Below, piece after piece: positions 2,314-5,319 of a stretch of DNA of 35,427 nt. The translations under genes and the position numbers were made by a program. Under the pieces are notes generated by a model, which saw only the letters and a program-made list of their open reading frames with translations, ran no database searches and had not been told where the DNA came from. The stretch lies in contig JAHDFZ010000006.1 of the NCBI GenBank assembly GCA_020627905.1, positions 1 to 35,427 of the forward strand. Reading direction: 5' to 3'. Positions within the stretch are counted from its first letter, which is position 1. Every line of letters begins with the position of its first letter. This DNA is from Verrucomicrobiota bacterium. Lineage in GTDB: Bacteria > Verrucomicrobiota > Verrucomicrobiia > Verrucomicrobiales > DEV007.

Positions 2314-2559
2314 GTGACCGCCGACCAAGTCACCGATCAAGTCACCGATCAAGTCAGGGCGCTGTTAGAGGGCCTGTCCGAAGCCGACAAGACCCTCTCC
2401 ACAGCCGGATGCCTCGCCCGCCCCAAGCTATCCCACCGCACGACCTTTCGGGAGAACTATCTCAGGCCCGCTCTCGACGCCGGACTTGTTGAGATGACCA
2501 TTCCTGACAAGCATCGCAGTCGGCTCCAGAAGTATCGGCTGACTAGCGGGAGCGCATAA
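2314..2559 (+). CDS. Orphan winged-helix C-terminal fragment (Fic/AlbA-2 type)
   Basis: 81 residues from a GTG nine bases after the prc stop. It begins with three tetrapeptide repeats (DQVT DQVT DQVR, encoded by 12-bp repeats at 2323-2358) and continues into a short winged-helix-like module ending EMTIPDKHRSRLQKYRLT. This repeat linker plus helical module is typical of the extreme C-terminus of Fic-family and AlbA_2/RecG-like ATP-binding proteins, which are normally 400-500 residues. No N-terminal part is present, because prc lies directly upstream. It is therefore most likely a gene remnant, although it could still be translated as a small DNA-binding protein by readthrough from prc. No ribosome-binding site is obvious. 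Confidence 0.5.
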   Translation: MTADQVTDQVTDQVRALLEGLSEADKTLSTAGCLARPKLSHRTTFRENYLRPALDAGLVEMTIPDKHRSRLQKYRLTSGSA

Positions 2560-3042
2560 TCAGCCTCTTGGAAGCGAATCGAATTTTGCCGTCCGTTTTT
2601 TGAGCAAGCTCCTTAAGAGATCGAGAAACGCGAATTGTCCACCACATGTATAGAAATGACGCTTTTCTTTCTGCGTGCGCCGCGAAGTGCATAGAAAACA
2701 CTACTTTTCTATACATATCGGAAGGCTGAACCGCTGAGCGAGAGAGACTTCCACCCTCTAACGACTTCCTTCATATCCCGTGACGAAGTCCAACTTTGAC
2801 TAAGAGCTAGTGCTGGATCTATGGATTCAATCAAAGCTAGATCTAGGGAGGAACCCATTCAGGCGGCTAAGTATCTCAACCGATTCCCCCAATGGAATTG
2901 CTCAACGCCGCTCTAAGTATGTGCCCTCAGCGCTTCGAAGCTTACCCCATTGGAATCTGGAGGGCAACCACGGCCGACGTCCTATTGATTCCAGAGACTC
3001 CGCTCTGCGCCTCTGCGCCTCTGCGCCTCTGCGTAAGCCCCT
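2560..3042. other. Non-coding stretch with dyads and a short repeat array
   Basis: I see no convincing gene here; the open frames have no protein-like composition, and one (2892-3146) is simply a translation of the CTCTGCGC repeat. The stretch holds the TATAGAAA-type inverted repeats (2646-2716), a 10-bp palindrome CTAGATCTAG (2837-2846), an imperfect inverted pair near 2881-2895 and 2947-2960, and the CTCTGCGC array (3003-3034). It separates convergent genes: prc and its fragment from the left, the DUF4130 gene from the right. No classical hairpin plus T-run terminator was found for either side. Confidence 0.6.
2646..2716. repeat. Inverted repeat cluster of TATAGAAA type
   Basis: ATGTATAGAAA at 2646-2656 is repeated exactly as its reverse complement TTTCTATACAT at 2706-2716. 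A third related copy, GCATAGAAAA at 2689-2698, forms a tighter perfect 8-bp hairpin (ATAGAAAA at 2691-2698 with TTTTCTAT at 2705-2712, 6-nt loop). The arrangement could be an operator for an unknown regulator, alternative RNA hairpins, or the remains of a small palindromic element. Only the symmetry is directly visible. Confidence 0.6.
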
Positions 3043-3057
3043 TCACAGACTCCGCTC
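2995..3057. repeat. CTCTGCGC tandem array flanked by an 11-bp direct repeat
   Basis: Four head-to-tail 8-bp units (CTCTGCGC, the last ending T) occupy 3003-3034. The 11-mer AGACTCCGCTC occurs at 2995-3005 and again at 3047-3057, so the interval 3006-3046 looks like an insert with a target-site-like duplication. Translated arrays of this kind (LCASAPLRLCV) are a familiar artefact in many environmental genomes. The insert contains the stop codon now used by the DUF4130 gene on the minus strand. Confidence 0.65.
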
Positions 3058-3951
3058 GTCTTCCACTCCCGCACCAGCCCCCTCGCCCAAACTCTCTAGA
3101 TACGCATTCTTCGGCCGAGGCTTTGGCTCTACCGCTTGCCTCGTGATCATGGCATCACGCCGATTATTGGCTTCTGCTGTCAGCTCCTCAATCAATTCTG
3201 CCTCAGGCAGATTCTTCCAATACTTTTTCGGCATTTCCGACTGCATAGCCTGCAGCTTGAGGCGGGAGGGATTGAAAATGCTCCGGTAGTAGGTGCGCCA
3301 CAGATCATCCAACTCACCCCCAGAGGGTGCCTGCTCCCTCGGCACACCATCGGTAAAGCTCAATTTGCTCCCCCGCCAGTGCATGCACTCGTCAGGCGTC
3401 AGAATCGACCAGTCCATGCTAGTAAAACGCTTGCGGAAGAAGGGAGCCGCAAATCGAACGATGAAGTGATCCGGCTCAAACCAGGCGACAAACTGCTCGC
3501 GGCCCGTCTCCGCGCAGTCTCCCGTTTTCTGAAACCGGACAAAGGCGTGCATCTTGTGGAGATCGCGGGAGATCTGTTTGGCCATGCCCTGCAGCCGACG
3601 GATGTCGTTGTCCGTCGAGAGTTTCAGCAGGTGCTTCTCCCCGCCCCGTGTTAGGCGCCAAAGCACGCGGTAGAGAAGGCTCCATCGCATCGGATCACGG
3701 TGACAACTGACCGTTTCAGCGAGACGGAGAAACTCGGCAGAAATGAGCCATTGTTGAGTGTCTGCGGCCGCGTCGGGTTGTTCCGTTTGAGTCACAGCGA
3801 GGTTCGCAAAAAGATCCTGTTCGGAACTCTCACTGTCTTCCCAGATGGCCTCAGCCGGTGCCACACCCGTATGGAGTAGAAACCGAGCCCGCGTTCGCCA
3901 GGTCGCAAAATCGTGGATGCGAAAATCGCTATTTCCAACTGCTCGTTCCAT
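3043..3951 (-). CDS. DUF4130 protein, partner of the DNA-repair radical SAM protein (TIGR03915-like)
   Basis: 302 residues. Recognised by its position and features: an N-terminal alpha-helical half, then the DUF4130 core with KMHAFVRFQ and WFEPDHFIVRFAAPFF, roughly residues 133-175, followed by WSILTPDECMHW. This family is nearly always encoded next to the TIGR03916 radical SAM protein and is often fused to a uracil-DNA-glycosylase-superfamily domain. Here no glycosylase domain follows DUF4130, so the protein is the stand-alone form. It starts three bases after the radical SAM stop, implying translational coupling. Biochemical function is unknown; the family link to DNA repair rests on those fusions. 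The last residues (DERSL) abut the CTCTGCGC insert and may be altered by it. Confidence 0.85.
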   Translation of the reverse strand: MERAVGNSDFRIHDFATWRTRARFLLHTGVAPAEAIWEDSESSEQDLFANLAVTQTEQPDAAADTQQWLISAEFLRLAETVSCHRDPMRWSLLYRVLWRLTRGGEKHLLKLSTDNDIRRLQGMAKQISRDLHKMHAFVRFQKTGDCAETGREQFVAWFEPDHFIVRFAAPFFRKRFTSMDWSILTPDECMHWRGSKLSFTDGVPREQAPSGGELDDLWRTYYRSIFNPSRLKLQAMQSEMPKKYWKNLPEAELIEELTAEANNRRDAMITRQAVEPKPRPKNAYLESLGEGAGAGVEDERSL

Positions 3952-3954
3952 GTC

Positions 3955-5319
3955 TTAGAGCTCTCCGCTGTGAGCGCTCACCCTAGCCTGCTTCAGCTCG
4001 GTCGCCTGCGGCGCGTGATGCAGGGCCGCACCGGCAGCGGCATTGTGCCTTCCGAAATCAAACTCCAGCTGCTCCGGCGGTGGAGCGAAGCGAGCGCGCA
4101 GATTTTCGTCATCGAGTCCCTGCCGCGCGGGGTGATGATCGGCGACGATGACAAAGGGCAGCACCTTTTCAAGAGAAACGCGCAGCTTGCGCAGGTCTTC
4201 ATAGCGAACGGCCTGCCATCTGCGCAGCTGGAGGATGCGCTGGACGGATCGAACACCGAGACCTGGAACACGAAGAAGGCTCTCCCGATCAGCGCGATTG
4301 AGATCGATCGGGAAGAGCTGTCGATGCCGGAGCGCCCACGCCAGTTTGGGATCGATGTCGAGATCGAGGTGCCCACCGTCAAGGCTATCCGCAGCGGTCA
4401 GCTCACCGACGTCAAAGCCATAAAAGCGTAATAACCAATCGGCCTGATACAGCCGATGCTCGCGCACCAAGGGTGGTGCCTTCGAGGGAAGGATGGTCGA
4501 GGAAGACGGAATCGGGCTGAAAGCAGAGTAGTAGACCCGCCGCAGCTCGTAGCCGCGATAGAGGTGGTCTGCACGTTGAAGGATAGCTGCGTCATCCGAG
4601 CGGTCCGCGCCGACGATCATCTGCGTGCTCTGACCATTGGCGTAAACGGCGGGGGCCTGTCGCCCACGGGCTGTGCGCGTAGACGCAGCCCGCCCAGCTT
4701 TCCGCTCCGATCGTCCCTCAACGATTCGCTGGCGAATGCCGCCCATGGCGTCCTGCGTGCGCTCCAGGTTTTTTTCAGGAGCGAAACGATCCAGCCCCTC
4801 CTGTGAGGGCAGTTCGATGTTGATGCTGATGCGGTCAGCATACTTACCGGCGAGCTCGATCAATTCCTGCGAGGCCTCGGGAATCGTTTTGAGATGGATG
4901 TAGCCTCGGAAGTCATGGACATCACGCAGCTGACGCGCCACCTCGATGACCATCTCCATGGTGTAGTCGGCACTGCGGACGATGCCACTGCTCAGGAAAA
5001 GGCCTTCTATGTAATTGCGTTTGTAGAAGCTCAGGGTGAGATCGACCACTTCCTCCGGCGTGAACCGCGCCCGCTGCACTTCGGAAGACCGTCGGTTGAT
5101 GCAGTAGTGACAATCATAGAGACAGACATTGGTCAGCAGGACCTTGAGCAGAGAGACACAGCGCCCATCCGGTGTATAGGAATGGCAGATGCCCGCACCC
5201 CCCGCCGATCCCACGCCGGCTCCGCTGCGTGAGTCTCGTCGCTTAGCCCCTGAGCTGGCGCAGGAAGCATCGTATTTCGCAGCATCGGCAAGGATACTGA
5301 GTTTCTGATCTTGATCCAT
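3955..5319 (-). CDS. Putative DNA modification/repair radical SAM protein (TIGR03916-like)
   Basis: 454 residues with the start set at 5319 (MDQDQKLSILADAAKYD), because homologues begin with this conserved segment; 50 further in-frame residues upstream look non-coding. The radical SAM 4Fe-4S motif CX3CX2C is C66, C70 and C73 (VCLYDCHYC). Family signatures follow: ASCASSG near the start, FLSSGI, NGQSTQMIVGA, YYSAFSPIP and HRLYQADWLLRFYGF. A C-terminal helix-hairpin-helix (DLNRADRESLLRVPGLG and onward) suggests DNA binding. The reaction catalysed is not known. It forms a tight pair with the downstream DUF4130 gene and follows a PLD nuclease gene by 76 bases, suggesting a DNA-repair operon. Confidence 0.9.
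   Translation of the reverse strand: MDQDQKLSILADAAKYDASCASSGAKRRDSRSGAGVGSAGGAGICHSYTPDGRCVSLLKVLLTNVCLYDCHYCINRRSSEVQRARFTPEEVVDLTLSFYKRNYIEGLFLSSGIVRSADYTMEMVIEVARQLRDVHDFRGYIHLKTIPEASQELIELAGKYADRISINIELPSQEGLDRFAPEKNLERTQDAMGGIRQRIVEGRSERKAGRAASTRTARGRQAPAVYANGQSTQMIVGADRSDDAAILQRADHLYRGYELRRVYYSAFSPIPSSSTILPSKAPPLVREHRLYQADWLLRFYGFDVGELTAADSLDGGHLDLDIDPKLAWALRHRQLFPIDLNRADRESLLRVPGLGVRSVQRILQLRRWQAVRYEDLRKLRVSLEKVLPFVIVADHHPARQGLDDENLRARFAPPPEQLEFDFGRHNAAAGAALHHAPQATELKQARVSAHSGEL

Follow-up and report, generated by a model that had tools for sequence, protein, structure and literature searches.

The window analysed here, a stretch of 35,427 nucleotides from a Verrucomicrobiota contig (JAHDFZ010000006.1), contains a short octamer array that is probably the orphaned end of a palindromic element, a member of a family whose larger members are cassettes carrying a GxxExxY gene (TIGR04256; PDDEXK_3 in Pfam). 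Arrays of this kind recur across phyla, and no described carrier was found in the literature searched. A gene for a predicted nuclease that is bracketed by the arrays and moves with them is a testable candidate for their spread.

The window array consists of 3.9 copies of CTCTGCGC (100% matches) at positions 3003–3033 on the forward strand, followed at 3034–3037 by TAAG, a degenerate form of the TGAG or CGAG tag that closes most such arrays. A DUF4130 gene (3043–3951, reverse strand), which adjoins a radical SAM gene, ends just beyond the tag with its stop codon at 3043–3045. The opposite flank of the array holds an ORF for a Fic-like C-terminal domain (2314–2559, forward strand), near whose start the 12-bp unit CCGATCAAGTCA is present in three tandem copies (2321–2356). 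We found no inverted partner array within 1 kb upstream; there is one single unit-like word at 2681, and such lone words occur at about the frequency expected by chance. Folding of the array as a single strand is weak (z = −1.6). Because the tag is degenerate, the inverted partner is missing and there is no strong hairpin, the array looks like an orphan, a one-sided and decayed end belonging to a family of small palindromic mobile elements. Compared with the proposed family of octamer-ended PDDEXK_3 cassettes, the window has the array and a tag that reads TAAG; with no partner and a weak fold, it is the unit and its polarity that assign the array to the family, and we infer its descent from a complete element. 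Rfam gave no match across positions 2500–4000, and plasmid records gave none to 2560–3060.

The genome that contains the window (3.6 Mb, 78% complete, 318 contigs) has one other array of this kind, CTCTGCGG in 5.9 copies (L059; G000:C298:1000-1046, reverse strand), which ends in TGCG and not TGAG. Arrays were found in 22 of the 95 lineage genomes searched. The sequence-only reading had suggested that the array is a dispersed repeat shared by unrelated environmental genomes, and this is borne out by its presence in Verrucomicrobiota, Planctomycetota, Nostocales, Proteobacteria, a Treponema MAG and viral contigs. A scan of named genomes that required the TGAG tag identified, among the matches listed, array-bearing Nostocales, Planctomycetota, Verrucomicrobiota, Kiritimatiellae, Lentisphaerae, Proteobacteria and a Treponema MAG. 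Forty-two stretches of viral contigs match arrays, and none of these 42 has a match to GxxExxY. The longest array noted, in G072, has about 15 units. Neither the octamer words nor a description of such arrays was found in the literature searched. Some arrays are surrounded by cyanobacterial MITE ends (GGCGTTGC..), seen in the cyanobacterial rows only.

Arrays have a defined polarity and commonly occur as inverted pairs. When the search did not require a tag, 38 of 53 verrucomicrobial arrays were nevertheless followed by TGAG (n = 28) or CGAG (n = 10). Of 189 arrays, 68 have an inverted partner no more than 700 bp upstream (20/45, 32/89 and 16/55 in the three subsets) and 14 have one equally near downstream (3/45, 3/89 and 8/55). 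The complete element has the form CTCR-(CGCAGAGN)n, a variable spacer and (NCTCTGCG)n-YGAG. We found 39 such elements and kept 34 once those sharing an end were removed. Their spacers are of unrelated sequence, and the two ends covary, with 360 of 374 outer bases identical as compared to 327 expected. Three complete elements that were folded as single strands form strong hairpins (z = −6.6 to −9.2). We also weighed, and did not adopt, a model in which elements insert into hairpins already in place: the longest inverted-repeat matches of the flanks are just mildly above those of shuffled sequence, though palindromy extends 1–6 bp past the complete elements (83 matches, 62 expected, p = 0.0005). 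In L046 (positions 1400–1704) two tandem copies, about 178 bp apart, each comprise an entire octamer element together with flanking sequence, which suggests local duplication.

Versions of the element of approximately 450–600 bp contain a GxxExxY gene. GxxExxY genes are present in 50 of 76 lineage genomes and in all 38 of the array-bearing genomes of other groups that were searched. The array motif occurs near GxxExxY at 7 of 30 loci, as compared to 0 of 30 loci with S23 genes and 0 of 30 loci with Y1 transposases (PF01797) of relatives (Fisher test, p = 0.0003), and both S23 four-helix-bundle genes and RAYT/Y1 transposases were rejected as carriers on these counts. Leaving out genes within 150 bp of the end of a locus, GxxExxY has a correctly oriented array on each side in 7 of 90 verrucomicrobial cases (5/31 and 2/59) and in 13 of 30 cyanobacterial or planctomycete cases; the background is 6 of 481 windows. 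Twelve of those 13 cases are a single cyanobacterial locus, which leaves a small number of independent sites in this sample, seven of them in Verrucomicrobiota, one in cyanobacteria and one in a planctomycete. Further sites were found in a Gemmataceae MAG (L223) and in G078 (L063), the latter of which seems to be the locus of L251. The other 100 of 120 GxxExxY genes have no arrays on both sides, and neither does the GxxExxY gene of the window's own genome (L253); array-flanked cassettes are present in three genomes of the window's genus (L251 in G004, L257 in G029 and L260 in G024). Both ends of a cassette are mostly of one unit type, CACGGAG, CACAGAG, CGCAAAG or CGCAGAG. The residues D62, E72-x-K74 and Q86-x-x-T-Y90 are invariant in all eight aligned cassette proteins, a pattern that we take to be of the RecB/Cas4-type PD-(D/E)XK class of nucleases. 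Matches to Cas4 in Pfam fall below the cut-off and are weak (E = 0.012 to 0.098). For the one cassette protein queried no solved structure was found. In the literature searched, the name "GxxExxY" appears in two papers and "PDDEXK_3" in none (underscore ignored in matching).

The behavior of the cassette can be followed at the cyanobacterial locus, for which 34 sequences were examined and the 31 with both anchors were compared (L488, L492 and L494 were left out). The cassette is present in 25 of the 31. L496 and L500 have clean empty sites of 56 nt, L501 has a collapsed element without the gene, L498 retains a one-end remnant, and L499 and L503 have other sequence at the site. In L497 and L502 the cassette gene is inverted between the arrays. 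In the 25 cassettes the left and right arrays correspond in type (r = 0.95). That type, either CAGAG or CAAAG, changes nine times on the tree of the flanks and twice on the tree of the gene; the flank tree rejects a single CAAAG clade (p ∼ 1e-11), and the gene tree does so weakly (p = 0.03), with L481 as the exception. Most flank windows of the sister genomes L472 and L505 are 94–100% identical up to the edge of the array and ∼54–82% identical inside, with ∼100 bp of other sequence past the right array in L505, and the pair L479/L484 exhibits the same pattern. Because the two trees disagree and flank identity extends up to the array edge, we conclude that the gene and its arrays were exchanged as a unit at this locus, the single one at which such exchange is seen. 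Ordinary recombination with short tracts may be an alternative account of the exchange. In L470 both arms of the cassette contain a 19-bp insert and the two are exact inverse copies, suggesting arm-to-arm copying.

How such cassettes might move can be proposed tentatively. The octamer arrays could be the ends of nuclease-driven cassettes that GxxExxY copies into fixed sites without duplication, with the arms correcting one another and deletion giving rise to hairpins and orphans; we regard this fuller scheme as possible, though short of probable. In a complete element the octamer arrays form the terminal inverted repeats, with the CTCR/YGAG tags outermost, and the larger members of the family hold a GxxExxY gene and behave as cassettes, so that a given site may have one, lack one, have it inverted or have it swapped whole. 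The cassette would spread by repair of a break that the nuclease provokes, a homing-like copying during which the arrays may act as recognition or pairing ends, and no target duplication would result. Deletion inside the element and loss of an end would then yield short hairpins and, from these, orphan arrays like that of the window. That the nuclease drives movement is what we infer. If the scheme is true, these elements represent a new type of mobile element that uses a PD-(D/E)XK nuclease and not a transposase, and it would account for recurrent array-derived peptides (e.g. SRRDAEAQR) in conserved proteins such as cyanobacterial IleS.

The sequence-only reading had favored a different origin, a small dispersed repeat inserted at the window with an 11-bp target duplication, which we now consider very unlikely. 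Its observations on the window itself are accurate. AGACTCCGCTC exactly flanks the interval, at 2995–3005 and at 3047–3057 (both forward strand), the right copy lying within the 3′ end of the DUF4130 gene with the stop codon between it and the tag, and deletion of 3006–3057 changes the end of the DUF4130 protein from ERSL (302 aa) to ERSLWNQ (305 aa). The left copy, however, ends in CTC (3003–3005), which is also the first three bases of the array, and therefore only AGACTCCG (8 bp) lies outside the array. When the two 60-bp flanks are shuffled, they share 8 bp with P ∼ 0.058 (4000 shuffles), and so do 42 of the 666 pairs of segments tiled across the window; the 11-bp match including CTC has P ∼ 0.0015 (4000 shuffles). 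The C-terminal tails of DUF4130 proteins vary in length among relatives (9 of 21 loci extractable), so the gene end may have been changed. The radical SAM gene is present at 18 of these 21 related loci, and the S41 protease and Fic-like ORF of the array's other side at none, so that no relative with an empty site matching the window was found among them.

Beyond the window, target duplication as a rule did not hold up. After near-duplicate flanks were dropped (283 arrays to 227), direct repeats of at least 11 bp, with overlap into the array allowed, flank five of the 227 distinct arrays, the window's included, as compared to 0.5 expected; this excess, like the low P of the 11-bp match at the window, counts for target duplication and against the orphan-end reading. 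The other four look, by eye, like repetitive, low-complexity or multicopy sequence, and 222 of 227 have no such repeat. With masked flanks, direct repeats of at least 8 bp flank 3 of 48, 2 of 64 and 5 of 115 of these arrays (0.8, 1.7 and 3.6 expected). Copies elsewhere without flanking repeats had been named in the sequence-only reading as a result that would refute it, and this is the result obtained; the second array of the window's genome likewise has no direct repeat of more than 5 bp. None of the 34 complete elements has a 3–5 bp duplication at its ends, one has a 6-bp match (0.03 expected), and the empty sites L496 and L500 exhibit no duplication. Together with the 222 arrays that lack an 11-bp repeat, the element ends and empty sites argue against target duplication as a general rule. 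The 11-bp duplication beside the window array is probably incidental; it may reflect either a local duplication or a chance match favored by C/T-rich octamer-like sequence.

Three other accounts were weighed. Palindromic elements moved in REPIN-like fashion by another trans-acting enzyme, with GxxExxY genes as passengers or neighbors, are a less likely explanation but a serious one: complete elements look REPIN-like in their inverted doublet, variable spacer, hairpin and many singlets (compare PMC3116915), most GxxExxY genes lack arrays, and viral stretches have arrays with no GxxExxY gene. The absence of the motif from the 30 Y1 transposase (RAYT family) loci, and the joint travel of array type and gene at the cyanobacterial locus, argue against it. 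Slippage in place, forming a simple 8-bp microsatellite, would fit the concerted change of units within an array and the length of the G072 array, but the identical word with an identical polar tag in unrelated phyla and the inverted partner on one side only make it highly improbable, slightly more so than target duplication. We give the least credence to a functional hairpin under selection, as a terminator or mRNA stabilizer. It would agree with the strong folding of complete elements and with the scarcity of arrays between divergent genes (8.6% observed, 18.3% expected); on the other hand, arrays are barely enriched in convergent gaps (28.9% observed, 26.1% expected), 69 of 223 lie within open frames of at least 100 aa, and the window array has no strong fold. 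The orphan-end reading remains the one that we favor.

The nearest described architecture is that of REPINs, which PMC3116915 presents as short doublets in inverted orientation, separated by a variable spacer and forming hairpins, with singlets taken as remnants. A hairpin-forming inverted doublet is seen in complete octamer elements and not in the window array. The octamer arms differ in being tandem and in their CTCR/YGAG tag, while the tagged REP families of PMC3733652 have palindromes bearing GTAG or CGTC; the link of the octamer elements is to PDDEXK_3, and not to the Y1 transposases that accompany REP-RAYT systems (motif at 0/30 loci). Like the MITEs of DDE-type insertion sequences, octamer elements have terminal inverted repeats and occur both as longer copies with a gene and as short non-coding copies. 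They differ in the lack of target duplication (0/34 at 3–5 bp, 1/34 at 6 bp, none at two empty sites) and in the gene between the ends, which encodes a predicted nuclease-fold protein and not a transposase. The small dispersed repeats (SDR) of Nostoc, associated with Elhai and others (2008), are reportedly single units of 21–27 nt with their own fold. They resemble octamer arrays in being very small, mobile-looking and nested in tandem repeats, whereas octamer arrays serve as inverted ends and have hairpin elements nested inside them. The intervening sequences of 23S rRNA with S23 genes share a small gene within a hairpin (PMC4990558), but the S23 genes have no octamer arrays (0/30 loci).

Arrays are also found inside coding DNA. 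Twenty-two of 23 ileS loci were aligned (L448, without two anchors, was left out), and at one linker an array, intact or degraded, is in frame in 14 of the 22 sequences, an unrelated palindromic element occupies the linker in seven, and L205 has no insert. This linker is an in-frame insertion hot spot of an essential gene in Nostocales. The ileS linker element of L446, L447 and L450–L454, compared with L417, reads GGAACCCCACCCCC..GGGGGTGAGGTTCC. Hairpin elements of ∼40–50 bp (e.g. GGACACTTGC..GTGTCC) sit between octamer units in ileS of L441, L464 and L465 and in putA of L421, L422, L457, L458 and L463; with hairpins inserted in this way, the arrays provide landing sites to other small repeats. 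The units of the ileS and putA arrays switch type together, and these arrays look inherited. In L034, L063 and L045, arrays lie by eye in the first codons of open frames, where the signal-peptide-like starts SAPLRLCV and SASLRLCV are seemingly encoded in part by the array, and two of the three array starts precede sulfatase-like sequence.
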